From assembly GCF_900155385.1 (NCBI RefSeq), contig NZ_LT699744.1, positions 515,562-579,561 of the forward strand: 64,000 nt of DNA, read 5' to 3'. The notes under the pieces are model-generated. The model saw only the letters and a program-made list of their open reading frames with translations. It had not been told where the DNA came from and searched no databases. Position numbers and translations under genes: made by a program. Every line of letters begins with the position of its first letter. Positions within the stretch are counted from its first letter, which is position 1. Origin of the DNA: Vreelandella massiliensis (GTDB lineage: Bacteria; Pseudomonadota; Gammaproteobacteria; Pseudomonadales; Halomonadaceae). Positions 2,993 to 17,433 of this stretch are shown one piece after another.

Positions 2993-3934
2993 TCACGTTG
3001 ACTCGCTGGCCAACCGGTAGCAGTTGCGCCCCGCCTGCTTGGCCGCATAGAGTGCGGCATCGGCCTGGGCGAGCAGGCTTGTCATGCAGGCCTGATCGTC
3101 TCTTGGTGTGTCGGTACTAGCCGGCAGCACCGCCACCCCAAGGCTCAGTGTGACCACCTCGGCAGCGCTGGAATGAGCATGAGGCAGGGCAAGCGCTTGT
3201 ACCGCCTCGCGCAGGCGTTCGGCTACACGGCACGCCCCCGCGGCATCGGTACCCGGCAGTAGCGCCACAAACTCTTCGCCACCGTAACGCGCGATCACAT
3301 CGGTGGGGCGCTCCGCGGCAAGTGTTAAGGCCAGTGCGACCTTCTTCAAGCACTCATCCCCTGGGCCATGGCCATAATGGTCGTTGAACTGCTTAAAATG
3401 ATCCACATCCATCAAGATGACCGAGAGGGGCGAGCCTTGGCGTCGAGCGAGACCGAACTCTCGGGTTAGCTGCTCGTCGAAGTAACGTCGATTAGGAATG
3501 CCGGTCAGACCGTCGAGCATGGCGATCTTTTCCAATAGATCGGTCTTACGCTTAAGGCTCAGATGGGTATTGACCCGGGCGCGCACTATTACCGGATAAA
3601 ATGGCTTGGTGATATAGTCCACCGCGCCGAGCAGAAAACCTTTCTCCTCGTCAGTCACCGAATTACTTGCTGTCACAAAGATTACCGGAATATCGTGGGT
3701 ACGACGGTTTTCCTTGAGGCGCTGACAGACCTCGTAACCGTCCATGTCTGGCATCTGAACGTCAAGCAGGATCAGGTCGGGTGGCATCTCCCCGTTGGCG
3801 AGCGTTAGGGCTTTTGCGCCACTGTTGGCCACTTTGATACGGCAGTCTGCCTTGAGCAGTTTGGCCAACACCTGAATGTTATCAGGCTGGTCATCCACGA
3901 TGAGCACGGTCGGGGTGAGTTGCTCTAGGCTCAT
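2993..3934 (-). CDS. Response regulator diguanylate cyclase (REC-GGDEF)
   Basis: This 313-residue cytoplasmic protein has an N-terminal receiver domain (about 9-125) with phospho-acceptor D58 in [13 protein letters not shown], then a GGDEF domain (about 140-308). The active-site motif is intact (GGEEF, 218-222), as is the metal-binding Asp in MDVDHFK. An RPTD inhibitory I-site (209-212) sits five residues upstream of GGEEF. It should make c-di-GMP from two GTP when its receiver is phosphorylated, with product inhibition through the I-site. Its ATG overlaps the stop of the upstream hybrid kinase by four bases (ATGA), so the two are probably translationally coupled, and that kinase is the obvious phosphodonor. 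Confidence 0.93.
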
Positions 3935-6927
3935 GTCACTTTTCCTTCTGCCGCTTGAATGAGGGCGTCGAGTTGCTCAAGCGCTGCCTCGTTCTCCATC
4001 TGTTCCACCAGGGTGGTCAGCTGGGCAAGACTAGCAGCGCTGGCGACGGTTTCCAGTGAGGCGAGGGCTGCCTGAAGCGTGGTTTCATCAACGAACTCGC
4101 TGGCCGCAAGGTACTCGCGCAGTTGCGCAATAGCAGCGGGGTCTTGTGTGACACGCGCTGTCTGGCGGGGCGCGCTTAGGGAGGTGAGGGCATGCTTGGC
4201 TTCTTTAAGGGCGCCAACGAGGGCTTGACGCTGAGCGTGGGTCACGTTGCCACCCGCGTAGAGGATGGTTTCGATCTCACCTGCAAGCTGATGCAGTGTT
4301 TCGGCGGCAAGGGTGCCGGCCAACCCCTTGAGGGAGTGGGCCAGCCGTCTGGCGGCGTCACGTTCGCCTGCTTGAATCAGGCCGGGTAGGGCGGCAAACT
4401 CGTGCTCAAGCCGTTCACGAAAGCGCACTAGCATGGCGAGATAAAAGTCTTCCGCGCCATCGACATAGCGCACTCCTTTGGCGACATCAAAGCCTTTTAA
4501 GCTTGCGGGCAGGCATCCGGTTGTCGGCGTTGCAGGTGGAGTGACCGGCGCTTGTGCTTCAGTACCCAGCCAGTGCGCCAGCGTGCGATAGAGCATTGCG
4601 CTGTCAATGGGCTTGTCCACATGGTCATCAATGCCAGCTTGGCGCGCGCGGCTGCGGTCGTCCTGCATCACGGACGCGGAAAGCGCGATGACCGGTGGCG
4701 TGAAGCCTCTTTCGCGTAGGCGAGCGGTGGCCTCAAAACCATCCATTACCGGCATTTGTAAATCCATCAGCACCAGATCGAAGGCCGACTCCTTAGCTTT
4801 GTCCAGGGCCTCAACGCCATTTTCTGCTAGCACAATCTCGGCGCCGGTTTTCTCTAGCAGGCGTAGTGCCACCTCCAGGTTGATGGCGTTGTCATCCACA
4901 AGAAGAAGGCGGTAGCCATCCAGCGCGGGGAGCGTCGCCATCTTTGCACGCTCAGGCGCGGCATGCCTGGCTGAATCGGCTGTTGTGGACGCTCCGGCTA
5001 GAGAGAAAGTGAGACTGAAGAAAAAGTGACTCCCTTGACCCGGAGTGGATTCCACGTTTAATTGGCCGCCCATCATCTCCACGAGTTGGCGACTGATCGC
5101 GAGCCCGAGGCCGGTGCCGCCGTACTGACGGGTGGTTGAGGTGTCGACCTGGGAGAAGCTTTGAAACAGTTTCGCTATATCGGCTGAGGTCATGCCGATG
5201 CCGGTATCCGTCACGCTGAAGGTCAGATGAGCACTATCGGCTTGGCGTTCCGTTAGTGCTACGTTCAAGGTGACACTGCCGGCGGCGGTGAACTTCACGG
5301 CGTTGCTGAGTAGGTTGGTGAGTACCTGGCTTAGACGTAGCGTATCGCCGATCAGCCATCGGGGGACTTCGGGATCGATCACTATCTCCAGGGCGAGTCC
5401 GCGCTTTTGGGCCGTGGCCTCAAAAAGGGCCCACATCTGCTCGGTTAGGCTATTGACATCAAAGGGGATCTGCTCAAGCTCAAGCTTGCCGGCCTCGATC
5501 TTGGAGTAGTCGAGTACATCGTTGATGATCCCCAGTAGTAACCGTGAGGCGTCGTGAATTTTATCGAGGTAGTCGCGCTGTTTGGCATCCAGCGGCGTCT
5601 CCTGCAGCAGTTGGCTCAGGCCGATCACGGCATTCATGGGGGTGCGAATCTCGTGGCTCATGTTGGCGAGAAACTCGCTTTTGGCACGGTTGGCTTGCTC
5701 GGCCTCCTCGAGGGCTTGCTCCATGCGGACTTCACGCTCCTTGGCCTTAGCCTCGGCAGCTTTAAGCTCCGAAATATCTTGAATAATGGACCAAATAACC
5801 GGCCGCCCCTCAGCGTCGAGGCCCTTGAAGCCGCTTAGCAGCACGGGATAGCGCGAACCATCGCGGCGCTGGTACTCCTTCTCGAAAGGGCCGTAGCGTC
5901 CGGTACTTTCTAGTATCTCTAGTTGCTGCTGCTCGGCTTGCTTGTACTCCACCGGGGTGATGTCCCAGTAGCTCAGACGCCGGAACGCTTCAGGGGTGTA
6001 GCCCGCCGGCTCATTGACGGCGGCGTTGAATTCCAGAAATTCGCCAGTTTGGTAGTCATTCATGGCGATCCCCACGGGGGAGAGCTCGAAAAGGCCCCGA
6101 AACTTGGCTTCCTCGGCGGCCAGTTCGCGGCGCTCATGCACGCGCTGGCTGATATCACGGATAGTGCCGATAAATTCGCGAGGATGATCCAGGCCGGTAT
6201 CCGCAACGTTAAGCTCAATGGGAAAAGTGCTACCATCGCGACGCAGCGCCGTGACTTCACGGCCGATGCCAATAACGCGTCGCTCGCCGGTGTGTTCGTA
6301 GCGCTGCATGTAGCTGTCGTGTTGGCTGCTATAGGGCTCGGGCATCAGCCGGCGCAGGTTCTCGCCGATGATCTCCGAGGCCCTGTAGCCGAACATGGCT
6401 TCGGCTGCACGGTTGAAGCTTAAAATCCGCCCGGTGTCATCGGCGGTGATGATGGCGTCGCCAGCGGTGTTAAGCAGCGTGTGCATGCGCTGATTGGCGT
6501 CTTCAAGGCGTATCTCCAGGCGATGGCGGCTGATGACTTGGTGAAGCGTCCGGAGTAGCCGCGCCGCGTCAACATCACTTTTGACCAAATACTCCTGCGC
6601 GCCTGCCGCAAGCGCCTGCAGGGCAATGCCTTGGTCGTCGTTGCCGGTCAGCACGATGATGGGGGTATCCGCTGCCAACGCACGAGCATTGGTCACGGTG
6701 GGTATCCCTTGCGAGTCCGGCAGCCCTATATCCAGCAGTATTACATCCGCCGTGTCGCTTTCCAGAAAGCGAGTTAGCTCGGTAAAGGTGGCGACCTGGC
6801 TCAGCCTAATAGCTGTCTCGGTCTGTCCGCCCGGGGGGCGGCTGAGATAGTAGCGTATTAGCTCGGCCTCTGAGGGTTCATCCTCCACCAGCAGGACATG
6901 CAGGTGTGAAGCGGTTGACGTTAGCAT
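3931..6927 (-). CDS. Hybrid sensor histidine kinase (REC-PAS-PAS-HK-REC-HPt)
   Basis: I place the start at the ATG at 6927 ([11 protein letters not shown]), which has ttgagaga upstream. The open frame extends to 7128, but that would overlap the preceding HD-GYP gene by about 190 bases. The 998-residue product has an N-terminal receiver (Asp about 66), two PAS domains (about 145-390), HisKA with phospho-His about 425 in [10 protein letters not shown], HATPase_c (about 525-640), a second receiver (Asp about 720) and a C-terminal HPt with AHSLKGLAG, His about 864. No membrane segment is seen, so it is a soluble phosphorelay hub. The order suggests His-Asp-His transfer, with output to the downstream REC-GGDEF cyclase. 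Confidence 0.93.
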
Positions 6928-6934
6928 GTGTCTC

Positions 6935-8068
6935 TCAAGAGGGGGTGGGTTCGTGATGGTCGCGGTAGTGCTCGCGCACCTTGAGGACCTCGGGTAGTAC
7001 CTTAAAAAACGCATCCACCACGGCGGGGTCGAAGTGCTTGCCGCGATTCTCCTCGATGAGGGTAAGCGCTTCGTCCACCGACCAGGCGCGCTTATAGGGA
7101 CGAGGCGAGGTGAGCGCGTCGAAGACATCGCTGATGGCGGCGATGCGCCCCGAGAGGGGAATCGCCTCGCCGGCGGTGCCGTGAGGATAGCCGCTGCCGT
7201 CCCACTTTTCGTGATGGGTGAGGGCGATATCCCGCGCTAAACGCAGTAGGTCCGAGTCATCGCCCTCCAGCATACGCGCCCCGATGGTGACGTGGGTTTT
7301 CATGATCTCCCACTCGTCGGGCTCGAATTTGCCGGGCTTGAGCAAAATGCGATCAGGTATGCCAATCTTGCCGATGTCGTGCATGGGGCTTGCCAGCAGT
7401 ATCAGTTCGCACTCGGCGTCGGTCCAGCCCAGCTCTCGGGCGATCAGCGCGCAGCACTGGCTCATGCGTAGGATGTGCTCGCCGGTCTCCTCGTCGCGGT
7501 ACTCGGCGGCCAGGCCGAGTCGGCGCACCACCTGCAGGCGGGTGTGGCTGACCTCCTCGGTACGCAGGCGCACCATTTCTTCGAGCACAGCGTTCTGTTC
7601 GTGTAGCAGGCGCTTACCCAGATGCGCTTCAAGTTGATTGCGCACCCGCATCATAAGCTCGGCCCGGTCGAAGGGTTTGGTGATGTAATCACGGGCGCCA
7701 AGAGATAGCGCACGTAGCAAAAACTCACGATCGCTTTGGGCCGTCAGCATGATGACCGGGGGCAGCAGAGGGTCATCGAGCGCCTGAAGCTGTTCGAGCA
7801 CCGCAAAGCCGTCTAAGTACGGCATGTTAATATCGAGCAGAATGAGTGCCGCCCCTTCCTCTTGGTAGCGCGCCACCACCTCTCGCGGGTCGGCAATCAA
7901 CTGCAGGTTCAAATAACCTTGGGCCCGGAGCATCCGGTCCATGAGCTTGAGGTTGGCGGGCTCGTCGTCAACGACAAGAATGCCGCCGGCCTTGATGTAT
8001 TCCTCGTCCAAGTCACGCATGATCAGGCAAGTGCTCTCGATAGTCGTTGTACGATAGTTGTTGTACAT
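6935..8068 (-). CDS. Response regulator with HD-GYP phosphodiesterase domain
   Basis: The product is 377 residues from the ATG at 8068. A second in-frame ATG at 8020 (MRDLDEEY) is an equally plausible start because neither has a strong Shine-Dalgarno. The receiver (about 28-145) carries D79 in [13 protein letters not shown]. The HD-GYP domain (about 170-370) shows [10 protein letters not shown] (HD at 230-231) and [13 protein letters not shown], the full signature of c-di-GMP-degrading HD-GYP enzymes, which hydrolyse c-di-GMP to pGpG/GMP. It ends seven bases before the next kinase starts. Pairing an HD-GYP enzyme with a GGDEF enzyme in one operon suggests opposing outputs of one phosphorelay. 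Confidence 0.93.
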
Positions 8069-8083
8069 AAAAGGAGCATGGCA

Positions 8084-9790
8084 TTACGCCTGCCCGTTTT
8101 GTTTGGCATTACTGTCTTTCAGGTAGGCGTCCAGCGTTTCCAGAAAGGCCGTCACGTCCAAGGGTTTGGTCAGGTAGTGGTCAAAGCCCGCTTGCCTTGC
8201 CCGCGTGATGTCGTCGGGCATGGCGTTGGCGCTCACGGCCACGACGGGAATATCTCGCGTCTCTGGGTCTTGACGGAGAATCTCGAGCACCTCGAAGCCG
8301 CTTAGCCCAGGCATGTGGATATCGAGAAGAATCAACGCCGGACGCTGTTCCCGGGCAAGGATAATGCCTTGTTCGGGAGCTTTCGCGGTAAACAGCTGTA
8401 TGCGTCTTCGGCCGCGTAGCAGTTTCTCTACGACCTTAAGGTTGGCTGGGTTGTCTTCGATATAGAGCACCGGTGAGTGTTCGAGGTCATCGACGGGCTC
8501 GGATGGCCTTGCCGGGGGAGTCACTACTTCGAAGGTTGGTTGATGCATCTCGCCGGGAAGCTCGACCCAGAAACAGCTCCCCACACCAGGCTGGCTCTCC
8601 ATCTCCAACCGGCCTCCCATTCGTTCGGCGATGCGCCGGGAGATACTCAGGCCAATGCCGGTCCCCTCGATGGCGCTACCTTCTGCCTCAAGACGGTTGA
8701 AGGGCTGAAATAGGGCGGCATGATCTTCTGGCGCAATACCCTTACCGGTATCGGTGACGCGAATCTGTAAGCGTTCAGGGGCGGATGAGGCGAGCGCAAC
8801 GTCAACCTGGCCCTGCTCGCGATTGTACTTAATGGCATTGGAGAGCAAGTTGAGCAATACCTGCTTGAGCCGGGTGCGATCGGCTTGCACGACAGCACCA
8901 TTGAGATCCTCAGTGCAGAGTTGGATCCCGCGTTTGGCGGCTTGAGCGCGCACGAGTGTTAAGCACTCTTCCACGACGTCGGCGACCGCTACCGGCTCTA
9001 GTGAAAACTCCAAGTGCCCCGATTCGACCTTGGCGAGATCCAGTATCTCGTTGATCAGCGTAAGCAGATGCTGGCCCGCCTTGAGAATTTCGGCCACGCT
9101 ATCCCGCTGGTCCGCGTCGAGGCTCTCTTCGTACTCCAGCAGTTGGCCAAAGCCGATAATGGCATTGAGCGGGGTGCGCAGTTCATGGCTCATGTTGGAA
9201 AGAAACTCAGACTTGGCGCGATTAGCGCGCTCGGCCTCTTCACGAGCTCGGATGAGTTCCGTTTCCACCCGCTTACGTTCGTCGATATCACTATGGATAC
9301 CAATGACGCGGGTGGGGTGTCCGCTGCTGTCGCGTTCGGCCACGGTGCTGCGACAGAGTACCCACTTATAGCGACCGTTTTTGCAGCGAATCCGAAGCTC
9401 AACCTCGTAGCTTGTACGACGGTCCTGAAGGTAGGCGTCTAGGCGCTCTTGGGCCAAGGGAAGGTCATCTGGGTGAACATCCTTTTCCCAAGCGTCTGGG
9501 GTGCGATAAAACTCCTCGGGGCGATAGCCGAGCATTTCGGCGTAAAGGCGAGAGTACTGAACGACGTTGCCGGGAATGTCCCAGTCCCAAACACCGTCGC
9601 CTGCGCCCTCAACGGCAAAAGTGAAGCGCTCCTGGCTTTCGCGTAAGGCTTTTTCGGCGTCTATCTGAGGAGTAATGTCTTGTATGGTCCCTTTGAGAAA
9701 AACCAGCCGGCCAGCCTCATTCATCTCGGCCTTGGCCAGCTCGTGGACGTGGCGCACCTCGCCATCAGGGCGCAGAATGCGGTACATGAC
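8084..9790 (-). pseudogene. C-terminal fragment of giant hybrid kinase (PAS-PAS-HK-REC)
   Basis: This is the 3' part of the kinase gene interrupted at 9791 by an IS1380-family element. The frame opens in the middle of a PAS domain (MYRILRPDGEV) and continues through a complete PAS, HisKA (MSHELRTPLN), HATPase_c and a C-terminal receiver (ILLDIHMPGLSG), with a stop at 8084. The 567 residues from the ATG at 9787 are a complete kinase core without its N-terminal sensory part. That ATG lies at the insertion junction, and the insertion-sequence end just upstream (gaggcggggtc) could act as a ribosome binding site, so a shortened kinase may still be made. In the uninterrupted gene this codon is an internal Met. 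Confidence 0.85.
9786..9790. repeat. Target site duplication ATGAC, left copy
   Basis: ATGAC directly precedes the terminal repeat CCCGCCTC of the IS1380-family element. It is repeated at 11509-11513 after the other terminus. Five bases is within the range reported for this family. Confidence 0.85.
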
Positions 9791-11508
9791 CCCGCCTCAT
9801 TCATGAGGGTGCCGATTGAGCGTTTTGGAGCCATGGGTTGCCGGCTTCGGTTTTTCGCAGCCGTATCGATGGCGTGTTGACACACAGATTAATGCCCAAG
9901 TGTAGCGCTTATCTTCGTTGTCTATAACTTTCAGGCATTGATCCCGGCCATCAAGGTAGCCATGTCCGCCGGCCCCCGTTGTGGCCGCCTTGTTCTTGCG
10001 TTAGTTATGAGTTTATCGCCGTATTAGCTCAGTGCGGTCAGCTTCGGCAGCCCCTTGAGCAAGGTGGGCCACCATTTTTCAGCGGCGTCACCGAGGTGAA
10101 CGGTGATACGTCGAGCATGTAGCGAGAGGGTGGAAGCGACCTTGAGCACCTGCTCGCGCATCCGGCTCAGGCTCCAGCCTTGGCGAGTTTGTCGCACCAG
10201 AAGACAGCGCAGGCCATGCAGGACCTGGTAGGCGTAGAGGCTCAGCAGTAGACTCACTTCGTTACGAGCCATCACGTCTTGAACGGTGGAGGCGCCACGA
10301 TCCGTCGAGGAGAGATGCACGTCGAGGGCTGATTTTACCTCGCCCATGTGCGCTTCGGCACTGCCGCGCTTACGGTAAAGCGCCAGGACTTTCTCTGGGG
10401 GCCAGTGGAACTTGCTGAGATTGGTGACCAGGAAGAAGGCATGCAGCAACAGATCATCGGGGCGTTCCTGCACCACCAGTACCACGCGCCGTGGTGACGA
10501 CCAGGAGCCGGCTTGGTATTCCAGGTCATGACACCATTCACGAGGCTGTTCGGGTGGCCGGCCACGGGGTCGCTTGAGATAGGGCGCGGCTAGCTGCTGT
10601 AGACCTGTATGGCTGCGGAGCCGGCCCAAGTACTGAATGTCACGCGCTTCCAAGGCCTCCAGTGTCGCGTTGCCTGTGAAGCCAGCGTCAATGCGCACTC
10701 GCACCTGGGCGCCGGTGCTCTCGTTGAGTCGCCGTACCAGATGCGGGACCCAGGTGTCGGCATTCTCGGCCGGGCCAGCATTGCCCTCCCGCAGCAAACC
10801 GCCCACCATGTCGCCGGTCTCTGCCAACGACGCGACTAGCGGTGAGTAGATGCGGGCACCGTAATGACCATGAAAGGCCGAGCCGCCCTGGTGACCGTGG
10901 ACCTCAATCGGCAGGCCATCGATGTCCAGTGTCAGTTGATCCGGGCGTTTGCCCTTCTCCAGCGAGGTCAGACGCCAGACCACCAACCGCAGCAAACCTT
11001 CGTGTACGGCATCGATGTTGTCGCTACGTCCAAGGCACGTCAGCAGCCGCGACAGCGTGGCTTGGGACGGCCGGTCCTGCGCCAATGGCGTCATCCCGCG
11101 CGCATCGCTGCAGGCCAGTTGCCAGAGCGGGTCGTGGCGCAGTGTGTCGGTATCACTGAGATCGATCCAGCCCATCGCACGCTGTAGCACCAGCGTCCGC
11201 AGCTGGCTGGCCAGCGAATGGCGGATACGCAGTGGGTTGCGTGGGTCGACCAGATTATCCTCCAGCGCGTCGATCACGCCGCTGTTGTCGAGGGCTTCAC
11301 GCAGCAGCAAAGCGCCGCTGTCACTGGTGGTGCGTTGACCATCGAGCTCAACGCGGATGGACCCGTTGCAGGACGGAATCCAGGGAGATACAGTTTCACC
11401 CATAGCGGATGGTCCTCTTGAATCAGGTTCTTGGCGGAACGCACTGATTTTTCAAGAGAATACCATCCGCTATTTTCGTTTTCAGGTCTGCCTCATGAAT
11501 AAGACGGG
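9791..11508 (-). mobile_element. IS1380-family insertion sequence, complete
   Basis: This 1718-bp element has imperfect terminal inverted repeats CCCGYCTYATTCATGAGG, matching at 16 of 18 positions. They lie at 9791-9808 and, reversed, at 11491-11508. It is flanked by ATGAC direct repeats and holds one intact transposase gene on the minus strand. About 230 bases at the left end and 105 at the right end are non-coding. It splits the giant kinase inside a PAS domain, and removing it with one ATGAC restores the reading frame exactly. That clean excision in silico and the intact transposase suggest a recent insertion and a potentially active element. Confidence 0.92.
10024..11403 (-). CDS. IS1380-family transposase
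   Basis: The 459-residue DDE transposase is uninterrupted. The N-terminus has the family's typical RTTSDSGALLLREAL stretch and a region on autonomous DNA binding (NPLRIRHSLASQLRTLVLQRAMG). The catalytic core includes LTLDIDGLPIEVHGHQ (first Asp), RIDAGFTG (second Asp), and a C-terminal KRGSAEAHMGEVKSAL block with the catalytic Glu. Length agrees with the usual 430-470 residues. It is read in the same direction as the disrupted kinase, so its transcript could continue into the kinase remnant and the HD-GYP gene. Confidence 0.93.
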   Translation of the reverse strand: MGETVSPWIPSCNGSIRVELDGQRTTSDSGALLLREALDNSGVIDALEDNLVDPRNPLRIRHSLASQLRTLVLQRAMGWIDLSDTDTLRHDPLWQLACSDARGMTPLAQDRPSQATLSRLLTCLGRSDNIDAVHEGLLRLVVWRLTSLEKGKRPDQLTLDIDGLPIEVHGHQGGSAFHGHYGARIYSPLVASLAETGDMVGGLLREGNAGPAENADTWVPHLVRRLNESTGAQVRVRIDAGFTGNATLEALEARDIQYLGRLRSHTGLQQLAAPYLKRPRGRPPEQPREWCHDLEYQAGSWSSPRRVVLVVQERPDDLLLHAFFLVTNLSKFHWPPEKVLALYRKRGSAEAHMGEVKSALDVHLSSTDRGASTVQDVMARNEVSLLLSLYAYQVLHGLRCLLVRQTRQGWSLSRMREQVLKVASTLSLHARRITVHLGDAAEKWWPTLLKGLPKLTALS

Positions 11509-11513
11509 ATGAC
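11509..11513. repeat. Target site duplication ATGAC, right copy
   Basis: This second ATGAC copy immediately follows the right terminus (…ACGGG) of the IS1380-family element and matches 9786-9790. Confidence 0.85.
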
Positions 11514-12258
11514 ATCATGAGTCCCTTGTGTTTGCGTGTGACGCATACTAACGCTGAGTCGTCCGCGATCCTCGGGATGAATACGGGCTTTTAGGACCGT
11601 GTCACACGGCGTCACTTCGCCGGGTTGATAGCCTAGAATGCGGAACACCTCATCAGACCACGCGCGCTCACGGTTAAGAAGATTTAGCTGCCAGCTGCCG
11701 ATATGCGCCAGGCGTTGAGCTTCAAGCAGCTCGTGTTCGCGCTCGACAAGGGCGAGTTCAGCGCGTTTGCGTGCATCAATATCCTGCACCACGCCGATCA
11801 TTTGCAAAGGCGCTCCCTGCGCATCGCGCAGCACGGCTCCGCGTTCAAGCAGCCAGCGTACCTGTCCATCGGGCCATATCACGCGATGCTCGTACTCATA
11901 AGGGGCATCGTTTTCGATGGTGGCGCGAATCGCCGCGTTGAGCCCCTCGCGATCCTCAGGATGAACCGCCTGGATAAACAGGTCGTAAGAGGGTGCGATC
12001 TCCTCTGATCGAGCGTAACCGAAAAGAGGCGCGATCTGCTCGGTCCAATAGAGTTTGCCGCTCTGGATATGCCACTCCCAAGTGCCGATATTGGCGTACA
12101 TCTGGCCTCGGCGTAGGCGTTCCTTGTGCTCTTTTAACTCCGTCTGCGCACGTCGGCTGTCGGTGATATCGTGAAAGCTCCATACCCGGCCGATCGCGGC
12201 CCCGTCCATCACGGGTTGCGAGTACACCTCTAAAAAACGTCCACTGCTCAACTCCAGG

Positions 12259-12261
12259 ATG
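12259..12261. repeat. Target site duplication ATG of the IS3 copy, left
   Basis: ATG lies directly before the TGAACCG terminus at 12262 and is repeated directly after the other terminus at 13577-13579. A three-base duplication is normal for the IS3 family. Confidence 0.75.
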
Positions 12262-12300
12262 TGAACCGTACCGGCTTTCTCGGAGACCCGTTTGTTTGAG

Positions 12301-13518
<1,218 letters not shown>

Positions 13519-13526
<8 letters not shown>

Positions 13527-15420
13527 AGCTCCATCCTCTCAAGGTTTGGAGCCTCCGGGAATCCCGGAACGGTTCAATGTTGTGAAAAGTCTCCTGGGTT
13601 TGATAAAGCGCTTCAATGCGATTGAAGAAGTCGCCGCTTTGGGCACTGCTTACAATTTTATGTGCAACCGCCTTGAGGTGTTCGCGTTCATCCATCCCTT
13701 GATGCGCCTGGGAGGTGGGCAAATCCCAGAGTTGGCGAAAGCGGTCATTGGCAAAACGCACGCGCCGATCAGGCGCCACTGCCAGAATGCCATCCTGAGT
13801 CGCATCTAGCGTAGCGGTAAGCTCCTGCTCGCGCGCTTTAAGATCTAGCTCGGCTTGCTTTAGCTGCGTGATGTCGGTGCGAATCGAGACGTACTGGTAA
13901 GGGTTGCCGGTCTCATCGAGAAAGGGCGTGATAGTCGATTCCACCCAGTAATGCTTGCCATCTTTGCAGCGGTTGCAAATCTCGCCTTGCCATACATTGC
14001 CGTGGCAGATCGTCTGCCACATGTCATGGTAGAAGGCCGGTGAGTGCATGCCGGATTTCACGATACGGTGGTTGCGGCCCATGAGTTCTTCGCGAGAATA
14101 GCCGCTGATCTGACAGAAGCGCTCATTAACCTCGATAATATTGCCGTCTCTGTCAGCGACACTGACGATGGCGTGGTGGTTGAGCGTTAGGTGTTCGCGC
14201 TGGCGCTCGTACAGCGAGGTCTCTAGGCGTTTGCGAATAGCCCCGTGCTGGCGACTGCGGCGCGCACGCACGGCCACCGCTTCGATAAAGTGCTCTGGAT
14301 CCACCGGCTTGACCAGGAAATCATCGCCGCCGAGGTTGAGGGCGTGTAGCTGCTGCTGCAGATCGGTTTCGGCGGAGAGAAATAGAATCGGTAGCTCAAG
14401 GTAATTGTCGCGCTCGCGTAGGACGGCAGCGAGTTCAGGGCCGCTTACCTCGGGCATATGCACATCCAGTACCACGACATCAGGCGGCCAAGTCTCCATG
14501 GCATTGAGAAGCGCCATCGGCTCGGCCAGGGAAAAAACCTCCATGCCGGCACTTTCCAGTACCAAGGTTTGGCTCTCCAGCAGCACAGGGTCGTCATCCA
14601 CCAGCAAGACGCGATAGGGCTTGGGTGGCTGGCGCCCGCTCAAGCTATCCAGTAGCTGTATGAGTCCAGGAATCTCCACCGGTTTGGTGAGATAGCGGCA
14701 AGCCCCGGCGCGCAGGGCCGCCAGGCGCGCTTCTAGGTCATCGCGCACCGAAATGACCACGGTGGGGATGCCTTCCTGGCCACCGAGGCGGAGTCTTTGG
14801 ATCAACTCAGCTCCCTGTAAGGTGCCGTTATCCAATACCATGTCGATGATGACCACCGCCGGAAGCTCTGCCTTGGCATCGCTCAATGCTTGCTGAAACG
14901 CCTCTATTTGAGTGAAGCCTTGCACACGGTAGCGGCGTTTTTCGAGCGCCTGCGTCAGGTGAGCAAGCTGTAAGCTGTCATCTTCCAGTATGAACAGCAG
15001 GGGTTGAGTGGTGGGAGAGGGGGGCGGAGCCGGAATCATCAGCGACGGTTCGGTGCGTGTGAGACTCTGATGGGCCTCTGTGAGCAAGGCATCAAGTGCC
15101 TCTTTAAGCCCCTGGTGCTGGACGTCTGTAAGTGGCGGTGATGCTTCAAGGGCTGCCTTGGCGCGCCTTTCTAAAGTGCGCGCGCAGCGCGATAGCGTGG
15201 GCATGCCAAAGGTGCCGGCGGTGCCGGTTAAACGGTGTGCCAGAGTGTGTAGGGTATCAAGCCCTAGGGACTCTGAGTGCGACGCCGATACCGTCGTCTC
15301 GCTGCGGGCATGGGGCACCTCCAAGCAGCGGCGCATGGCGTCCAAGCGCTCAGGGAGCTGCTGAATAAATTGCGCACGCAGCGCGTTGAGCGCAGCCACG
15401 GCTTCTTCGGGCGTTGTCAT
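13519..15420 (-). pseudogene. N-terminal fragment of giant hybrid kinase (HPt-REC-REC-PAS)
   Basis: The native gene starts at the ATG at 15420, which overlaps the stop of the upstream regulator (ATGA). Native sequence continues to 13577, where the IS3 copy begins. The frame then adds about 19 foreign residues and stops at 13519, giving 633 residues. Domains: HPt with H62 (AHRLTGTAG), receiver 1 (about 143-265, Asp in VVIIDMVLDNG), receiver 2 (about 270-395, Asp in VVVLDVHMPEVSG), one full PAS (about 410-520) and a truncated PAS. There is no kinase core. As a free HPt/REC protein it could act as a phosphate sink. In the restored 1431-residue protein, HPt and receivers precede five PAS domains, HisKA, HATPase and a third receiver. 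Confidence 0.87.
13577..13579. repeat. Target site duplication ATG of the IS3 copy, right
   Basis: ATG directly follows the …GGTTCA terminus of the IS3-family element and matches 12259-12261. Confidence 0.75.
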
Positions 15421-15797
15421 GGCCTCTCCTTATGCCACAGCGCTTTAACTTCATCGGCAAGGGTCATCGGGTCGAACGGCTTGGCAATCACGCCGCAAGC
15501 GCCCAGAGCGGTGTAATGCGCCACCTCCTCAGGCTGCACGCGGGCGGTCATAAAGGCGATGGGCACATGTTGTAGCGCGGGGTCTTGGCGCAGTGCGGCC
15601 AGGGTCGTCGGGCCGTCCATGCCGGGCATCATCACATCCAGCAAAATCATGTCCGGGGCCAGAGCCGGCGCTCTCTCCAGCGCCTCGGCACCGGAGCTGC
15701 AGAGCGTGACCTGTAGACCGCCAATGGCTGCAAGCGCCAGCCGGGCCACCACCTGAATATCGGGGTCGTCTTCTACGCAGAGAATGTGCTCAAGCAT
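15417..15797 (-). CDS. Single-domain response regulator (CheY-like)
   Basis: The 126-residue stand-alone receiver has D54 in MILLDVMMPGMDG, acidic pocket ED at 9-10, and the conserved Lys in VIAKPFDP. I start it at the ATG at 15797 (MLEHILCVEDD) because it is preceded by AGGAGAGA at good spacing. The longer open frame to 15971 only repeats the antisense of the kinase tail. The start overlaps the end of the upstream GAF kinase by eight bases, and its stop overlaps the next ATG (ATGA). With no output domain it is likely a phosphorelay intermediate between the flanking kinases. Confidence 0.92.
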   Translation of the reverse strand: MLEHILCVEDDPDIQVVARLALAAIGGLQVTLCSSGAEALERAPALAPDMILLDVMMPGMDGPTTLAALRQDPALQHVPIAFMTARVQPEEVAHYTALGACGVIAKPFDPMTLADEVKALWHKERP

Positions 15798-17433
15798 TGG
15801 GTGTCTCTCCTGGTGCGGGGGCGGTACTGTCAGGCGTGATACCCATTGCCGCCAGCAGTGTTTCGGGGCCTGCTCGGGTCTTGAGCAGCACCGCCTCGAC
15901 TTGTTCGGCTTCTTTGGCCGAGACCTCCCACGCGGTGAGCACGACGAGACGGGCATCGGGTTGTCGGGCACGAACCTCGGGGACCAGTGACCATCCGCTA
16001 CCGTCGGGCAAGCTCAGGTCAAGCAGCACGGCATCAAAGCGTGCGCGCTCAAGCCGAGCGCGTGCGTCGAGCAGGGTAGCGGCATGCTCCAGGAGAATAG
16101 GGGCGCCCATTTGCGCCTGGAGCACTTGGGGAAGATCGATATCATCCTCGATAATAAGTACCCGCAAGACGTCTGCTTGACTGGCGTCGGTCTGCATTAG
16201 GGGTGTCTTGGCGGGTGCCGGCGCCGCCTCAAATCGGGGCGTAATGGGCAAGGTAAAGTAAAAGCGTGCCCCTTCCCCTTCAACCGAGTGAAAACCGATC
16301 TCACCGCCCATGCGCTCAATGATGTCACGGCTGATGGCGAGTCCCAGGCCGGTGCCTTCGCGCGTGCGGGTGTTGATGCTTTCCGCTTGGGCGAACTTTT
16401 CAAAGAGGTTTTTCTGGAACGCAGCAGGCACACCCGGGCCGTGATCCCGCACGCTCACTTCCACCCCTGTGTTTTTTGGCTCAGCGCTTAACACCACCTG
16501 GCCGCCAGGAGGGGAGAACTTCAACGCATTGGAAAGTAAGTTGGCCAGCACCTGCTGTAGGCGCTGTGCATCTACCGTTACCGTGACATCGACAATGGGC
16601 TCCAGAATCTCAATTGTCACCTTGCGCTCGTGGCTATAGGTGGCGAGGGCATCCACGGCTTGATAGATCAGTGGCGCTAGGGGCTCGGGCTGCATGTCAA
16701 AGCGCATCTTGCCGGCTGAGAGCTTTTCCATGTCGAGCAGGTCGTTAATCAACAGCGTTAAGCGCTTGCTGTTGGCGTGGGCGATCTCTAACATCTGGCT
16801 GGCGTCGGCGGAGAAGCGGCCCAGCATGCCGCTGTTGAGCAGCCCAAGGGCACCAGAGATAGACGTTAAAGGCGTGCGCAGCTCATGGCTGACCATGGAG
16901 ACAAACTCGCTTTTCATTCGCTCGGCCCGCTCGCGCACTTGTTCTAAAGCTTGCTGATTGATTTCCGCCTCCACACAGGCTGCGAGGTCAGCAAGAAGTT
17001 GGCGCTCGCTGGCTTCAAGCTGACGGGGTTGCGGGTCGAGCAGACAGAGCGTGCCTAGGGCGTGACCGCTTGGCGTTTGCAAGGGCATGCCGGCGTAGAA
17101 GCGAATAAAGGGCGCCCCAGTGACCAACGGGTTATCGTGAAAGCGCACATCCTTCCGGGCATCGGGCACTTCAAACAGCGTCCGGCCCAGAATCGCGTGG
17201 CCGCAAAATGAGATATCACGGGGCGTTTCGCTGGCCTCAAGGCCTTGGCGTGACTTGAACCATTGACGCTCACTGTCGACGAGGGTAACCAATACCGTCG
17301 AAACGCCTAACGCCTGCTGGGCAATGCGTGTCAGGCGATCAAAGCGCTCCTCGGCGGCGGTGTCGAGAAGCCCTCTGGCGTGGAGCGCCGCGAGGCGCTC
17401 AAGCTCATTTTCTGGTAACGCAGGTGGTTGCAT
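15790..17433 (-). CDS. GAF-domain hybrid histidine kinase
   Basis: The 547-residue soluble protein has an N-terminal GAF domain (about 20-165, with ISFCGHAIL and GALxLLDP-type GTLCLLDPQ), HisKA with FVSMVSHELRTPLTS, HATPase_c (about 285-400, N-box LLSNALKFSPPGG, ATP lid GTGLGLAIS) and a C-terminal receiver (Asp in AVLLDLSLPDGSG). The GAF pattern is the one found in cyanobacteriochrome-unrelated GAF kinases that follow a short ...LAALHxxGLLDT leader. The ligand is unknown. It is 48 bases downstream of the chemoreceptor gene and overlaps the response regulator. Confidence 0.92.
   Translation of the reverse strand: MQPPALPENELERLAALHARGLLDTAAEERFDRLTRIAQQALGVSTVLVTLVDSERQWFKSRQGLEASETPRDISFCGHAILGRTLFEVPDARKDVRFHDNPLVTGAPFIRFYAGMPLQTPSGHALGTLCLLDPQPRQLEASERQLLADLAACVEAEINQQALEQVRERAERMKSEFVSMVSHELRTPLTSISGALGLLNSGMLGRFSADASQMLEIAHANSKRLTLLINDLLDMEKLSAGKMRFDMQPEPLAPLIYQAVDALATYSHERKVTIEILEPIVDVTVTVDAQRLQQVLANLLSNALKFSPPGGQVVLSAEPKNTGVEVSVRDHGPGVPAAFQKNLFEKFAQAESINTRTREGTGLGLAISRDIIERMGGEIGFHSVEGEGARFYFTLPITPRFEAAPAPAKTPLMQTDASQADVLRVLIIEDDIDLPQVLQAQMGAPILLEHAATLLDARARLERARFDAVLLDLSLPDGSGWSLVPEVRARQPDARLVVLTAWEVSAKEAEQVEAVLLKTRAGPETLLAAMGITPDSTAPAPGETPNA

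Follow-up and report, generated by a model that had tools for sequence, protein, structure and literature searches.

Organization of the interrupted kinase locus

The window analysed here, a stretch of 64,000 nucleotides of Vreelandella massiliensis DNA (genome G000, 3.44 Mb), carries on its minus strand a hybrid histidine-kinase gene that is divided into three pieces by two insertion sequences (ISs), designated IS_A and IS_B. The locus is situated within a 1.02-Mb contig. Its features, each with the supporting evidence, are listed below in the direction of transcription; G029 and G077 are two other genomes of the genus.

15790..17433, minus strand: GAF-HisKA-HATPase-REC kinase gene, upstream (gene order as in G077, 70%)
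15417..15971, minus strand: REC protein gene, upstream (Pfam; gene order as in G077, 57%)
15420→8084, minus strand: interrupted hybrid histidine-kinase gene (ORFs, sequence, Pfam)
13580..15420, minus strand: kinase piece 1, residues 1-613 of the joined frame, with HPt, REC1, REC2, PAS1 and the start of PAS2 (ORF, Pfam, alignment with intact relatives)
13577..13579, no strand: ATG, a copy of the IS_A target duplication (sequence)
12262..13576, minus strand: IS_A, IS3-family insertion sequence of 1315 bp within PAS2 (ends, duplication, end-to-end matches, NF033516 for orfB)
13206..13526, minus strand: IS_A orfA, HTH_Tnp_1 (ORF, Pfam; alone below the NF033516 cut-off)
12301..13209, minus strand: IS_A orfB, rve integrase core (ORF, Pfam, NF033516)
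12259..12261, no strand: ATG, second copy of the IS_A target duplication (sequence)
11514..12261, minus strand: kinase piece 2, residues 614-863, with the remainder of PAS2, PAS3 and the start of PAS4 (ORF 11493-12410, Pfam, alignment)
11509..11513, no strand: ATGAC, a copy of the IS_B target duplication (sequence)
9791..11508, minus strand: IS_B, IS1380-family insertion sequence of 1718 bp within PAS4 (ends, duplication, NF033539, other full copies)
10024..11403, minus strand: IS_B transposase gene of the IS1380 family, 459 aa, open (ORF, Pfam PF13701, NF033539)
9785..9798, minus strand: GAGG (9798-9795, in the IS_B end) and native ATG (9787-9785), candidate start of a 567-aa fragment
9786..9790, no strand: ATGAC, second copy of the IS_B target duplication (sequence)
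8084..9790, minus strand: kinase piece 3, residues 864-1431, with the remainder of PAS4, PAS5, HisKA, HATPase and REC3 (ORF, Pfam, alignment)
6935..8068, minus strand: REC-HD-GYP gene, adjacent downstream (Pfam; adjacent in G029 too, 87% identical)

At present the frame of piece 1 continues into IS_A and reaches a stop at 13519 (633 aa), and the codons of piece 2 are split at the junctions. Piece 2 (window 11493-12335) is open into both elements; translation from an ATG at 12335-12333, close to the 3' part of IS_A orfB, could yield a PAS-domain protein of about 280 residues. Another hybrid kinase ORF (window 3931-7128) shares 194 bases with the HD-GYP gene; residues 1-67 of this ORF are probably non-coding, a later start being likelier.

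Insertion sequences within the gene

IS_A has inverted ends of the TG...CA type (TGAACCGTACCGG.../TGAACCGTTCCGG...) and is bordered by a 3-base duplication (ATG); target duplications of the IS3 family comprise 3-4 bases. Its two genes have the layout of this family, as orfA and orfB, the latter with the rve (DDE) core, lie in different frames and overlap by 4 bases, and orfB scores 308 bits against the NF033516 cut-off of 160. Its ends are borne out by the full-length matches to plasmid elements described below and by two other full copies in the genome with identical start and stop bases: one, at G000:C1:10033-11347, is identical to IS_A, and the other, at C2:1103535, has 1 mismatch in 1315. 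One of them is accompanied by an AGGT duplication and one by no duplication.

The ends of IS_B (CCCGCCTCATTCATGAGG/CCCGTCTTATTCATGAGG) are likewise inverted repeats, beginning with CC, and the duplication bordering them (ATGAC) is within the 4-5 bases that are usual for the IS1380 family. Its transposase reaches 346 bits (NF033539 cut-off 180) and thus belongs to the IS1380 transposases. Four other full-length copies, starting and stopping at the same bases, are present in the genome, the closest being 97.3% identical to IS_B and the three others 88%; two of the four have 5-base duplications (GAAAC, ATTAT) and the other two have no clean duplication. Elements of both types are clustered near the start of contig C1 (G000:C1:8000-42500), where one IS_A and three full-length IS_B-type copies are found within about 31 kb.

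The restored kinase and its uninterrupted relatives

The first-pass annotation of this DNA had proposed that the removal of both elements, each with one copy of its duplication, restores a single frame of 1431 residues. Rejoining of the flanks by a script, with a single copy of each duplication retained, confirmed the coordinates, the duplications and the frame to the base, yielding 4296 nt and 1431 residues with one terminal stop. The restored junctions read ...TQETFH|NILELSSG... (IS_A) and ...QGTHD|VMYRILRP... (IS_B). The proposed domain order (HPt-REC-REC-PAS...-HisKA-HATPase-REC) agrees with Pfam results for the pieces; five PAS domains were counted, by their Pfam stretches, on the three separate pieces and on the intact relative P0001 rather than on the joined protein. 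The phospho-acceptor His of HisKA, the N, G1 and G2 boxes of HATPase, the Asp and Lys residues of REC and the His of HPt are all kept, and by these motifs the protein would be a hybrid histidine kinase.

Residues 130-1290 of the read-through served as the query in a protein database search that scored 7990 candidates. This revealed 448 proteins at E<=1e-200, of which the nearest among the 120 matches listed were P0001 (1431 aa, JGI source), P0002 (1419 aa, Halomonas vilamensis), P0003 (1148 aa, Halomonas sediminis) and P0004 (1307 aa, Halomonas aquatica), all uninterrupted. An uninterrupted frame of 1159 aa is also present in G029. A scan of the named genomes with piece 3 gave at least 588 relatives, the best 80 of which reach a best-segment identity of no more than 55%.

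P0001 and P0002 provide the uninterrupted homologues of about 1430 residues that were to be looked for; they have the same domain content as the restored kinase, are 72-74% identical to it and show no gap at either junction, and they differ from the gene described here in being uninterrupted. In the alignment of P0001-P0004 and G029 the IS_A junction is gapless in all five sequences, and the IS_B junction in all four that carry the corresponding PAS domain, so that the uninterrupted relatives match the restored frame at both sites. The PAS domain that holds IS_B here is missing from P0004, which suggests that PAS modules are gained and lost in this kinase family. G029 and P0003 are without HPt and terminal REC, and the architecture of 1431 residues is therefore not universal but one of several. 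The intact orthologue in G029 (L123, G029:C19, 9848-13327) has no HPt at its N terminus and no REC at its C terminus, and is directly followed by the REC-HD-GYP gene.

Judging from the domains and the gene order, the intact sensor would most likely act in a phosphorelay, in which five PAS modules would feed the kinase's own REC and HPt domains, and from which the neighbouring REC protein and the REC-HD-GYP protein (a predicted c-di-GMP phosphodiesterase) would be phosphorylated.

Distribution of the kinase gene and its apparent break in a second species

With P0001 as the query (E<=1e-140), three of the 82 genomes searched in the genus carried the kinase, namely G000 (with two elements), G029 (intact) and G077. 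With piece 1 as the query (E<=1e-120), 5 of 250 genomes of the family matched: the same three and two of another genus, the latter with 48-49% identity and open frames of 1184-1185 codons. P0001-P0004 would have matched had they come from any of the 82 genomes, and so seem to lie outside this set.

In G077, which represents another species of the genus, the gene appears truncated (L138, G077:C158, 2036-4039), the match ending after residue 652 of P0001. A search of this genome for the remainder of the kinase gave nothing better than a 51% paralogue, and the HD-GYP partner was not found there at E<=1e-130. As in G000, the truncated gene is preceded by the GAF-kinase and REC genes (70% and 57% identical, respectively). 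The sequence from the break onward recurs over about 399 bases, at 91%, on contig C106; an IS4-family transposase is encoded at 5231-6682, about 1.2 kb downstream. Insertion of a defined element was considered and rejected, as no inverted repeat is discernible by eye at the two ends of the 399-base stretch, and the break looks more like a rearrangement; it is seen in the assembly of a draft genome of about 180 contigs. With both G000 and G077 interrupted, two of the three genus carriers in this sample are broken, by different events. The rarity of the gene in the genus and its different truncation in a second species lead us to infer that this lineage can dispense with the sensor.

Residual damage and age of the insertions

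The open frame, the intact motifs and the relatives that match at the junctions bear out the description of the locus as one gene with two insertions and no other visible damage. Relative-rate (Tajima) counts over the whole protein were made for two relatives and three outgroups (six comparisons). Five of the six gave chi2 values of 0.09-3.2 (<3.84); in the sixth, with P0002 as the partner and P0004 as the outgroup, the broken gene had an excess of unique changes (118 vs 85, chi2 5.4), located mainly in piece 1 (60 vs 37, chi2 5.5). In four of the six comparisons the count of unique changes was higher for the broken gene than for the relative paired with it. These counts point to no clear acceleration in the broken gene, yet slight decay may have begun. 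A stop is created by 3.4% of single changes in the kinase gene, so that one stop becomes 95% likely after about 87 neutral substitutions (2% of sites); given the intact frame, neutral divergence since the break was probably under about 2% per site.

The suggestion that both insertions are recent holds better for one element than for the other. The identical and single-mismatch copies elsewhere in the genome imply that IS_A moved recently. The closest copy of IS_B differs by 2.7%, so that its recency is argued by the clean flanks alone, and this insertion need not be recent. No strain of the same species, by whose divergence the insertions might be dated, was found.

Probable loss of the sensor and alternative explanations

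The explanation that we consider very probable is that a hybrid histidine kinase, accessory within its halomonad genus, ceased to function as a single protein after two separate insertions, of an IS3-family element in PAS2 and of an IS1380-family element in PAS4, each of which left the usual short duplication. The full-length product would thereby be lost, as both elements contain stops and part the input domains from the kinase core. With uninterrupted orthologues in its relatives and a disrupted frame here, the gene can be regarded as a probable pseudogene, and we infer the loss of its full-length product from the DNA; the loss may be incomplete if a C-terminal fragment is expressed. An origin of this arrangement in a faulty assembly, with repeated elements mis-joined into the kinase gene, is scarcely credible: both IS_A and IS_B are multi-copy, and repeats do cause misassembly, but target duplications are present at both sites, the flanks rejoin in frame and match the relatives, and the locus lies inside a long (1.02-Mb) contig.

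The presence of two elements in one gene had been taken as a sign of relaxed or even favourable loss. How often such pairs are to be expected was estimated from a census with four Pfam transposase models in the 3.44-Mb genome, which gave 6 places over the cut-off for PF00665 (7 matches), 10 for PF01609, none for PF02371 and 10 for PF00872; the resulting 26 places are a lower bound, as only these four families were counted. When gene lengths are drawn from the window (49 frames), 0.05 same-gene pairs are expected across the genome with 16 elements, 0.14 with 26, 0.33 with 40 and 0.76 with 60; the corresponding probability that such a pair occurs is about 0.13 with 26 elements, 0.05 with 16 and 0.53 with 60. 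The double hit is therefore mildly unusual and by itself weak evidence. The orientation of both elements in agreement with that of the gene, also put forward as a sign of such loss, has a 1-in-4 chance and adds nothing useful. Relaxed selection thus draws its support from the rarity of the gene in the genus and the truncation in G077, and hardly from the pair of insertions. That loss of the sensor was selected, which would explain both the two elements in one gene and the loss in a second species, appears improbable. Two of the three carriers among the 82 genus genomes are broken by different events, as this explanation would have it, but dispensability accounts for the same facts, a same-gene pair has the chance probabilities given above, the second insertion is neutral once the first has silenced the gene, and the gene is intact in G029 and P0001-P0004.

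A further alternative concerns the fate of piece 3. The end of IS_B might provide a free C-terminal kinase of 567 residues (PAS5-HisKA-HATPase-REC) with a ribosome-binding site and perhaps also with transcription; such a kinase would work without its HPt-REC-REC-PAS input half. At the edge of IS_B a GAGG precedes a native in-frame ATG by 7 nt, the 567-aa frame is open with all the catalytic motifs present, and the IS_B transposase gene is oriented toward the fragment. Outward promoters are, moreover, found in the same IS family: PMC9330008 describes a strong outward promoter in ISPme1, which mobilises DNA beside its 3' end, and a complete one in ISEcp1. However, when the IS_B end was placed at 4266 positions of the gene, such an ATG arose at 123 (2.9%) and any start codon at 416 (9.8%), and chance is accordingly a sufficient account of the GAGG-ATG arrangement. 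The promoter scan of 9600-13700 also speaks against this possibility, as it gave one sigma-70-like site, compared with a mean of 1.8 in shuffled sequences; this sole site is in IS_A (12410-12383), and none was found in IS_B. We regard the expression of a working fragment as unlikely, and loss of function is ranked far ahead of it. It is very doubtful that disruption strikes this kinase gene repeatedly in the genus and that IS_B here made a start for a free, input-independent C-terminal kinase; if it were so, transposition would have rewired the neighbouring HD-GYP pathway instead of merely removing it.

Inactivation of the accessory sensor by the two ISs, the preferred explanation, makes this locus a clean and checkable case of an apparently young gene loss, which by itself opens no new question. 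The present analysis adds that the kinase gene is rare and that a second species has it broken in a different way. The locus could serve as a small test case of how accessory sensory systems are lost and of whether IS ends re-create translation starts. A literature search, judged by titles, gave no report of this locus.

Comparison with known systems

Among the end-to-end matches listed, the plasmid-borne IS3 elements annotated as ISMex33 or IS51 share with IS_A the orfA/orfB layout and the TGAACCG... ends, and IS_A aligns with them over its whole length (1-1315), but their nucleotide identity is 70-71% and IS_A corresponds to no named element. Two of 162 plasmid records, outside these listed matches, have their best place at 90-95% identity to IS_A. 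Plasmid-borne IS1380 copies of Halomonas sp. KO116 are 85% identical to IS_B over 86% of the element, and Pseudomonas records also matched IS_B in the plasmid search. As IS1380-family elements, these plasmid copies and ISPme1 and ISEcp1 share with IS_B the transposase family and the 5-base target duplications; ISPme1 and ISEcp1 differ in their outward promoters, for no such site was found in IS_B by the promoter scan.

Inactivation of accessory regulators by ISs is a known process, and the case described here is an ordinary, well-known example of its kind, with a sensor gene interrupted by elements that are bordered by target duplications. It differs from the usual case in that two unlike elements share one gene and that another species of the genus has this gene broken in a different way.
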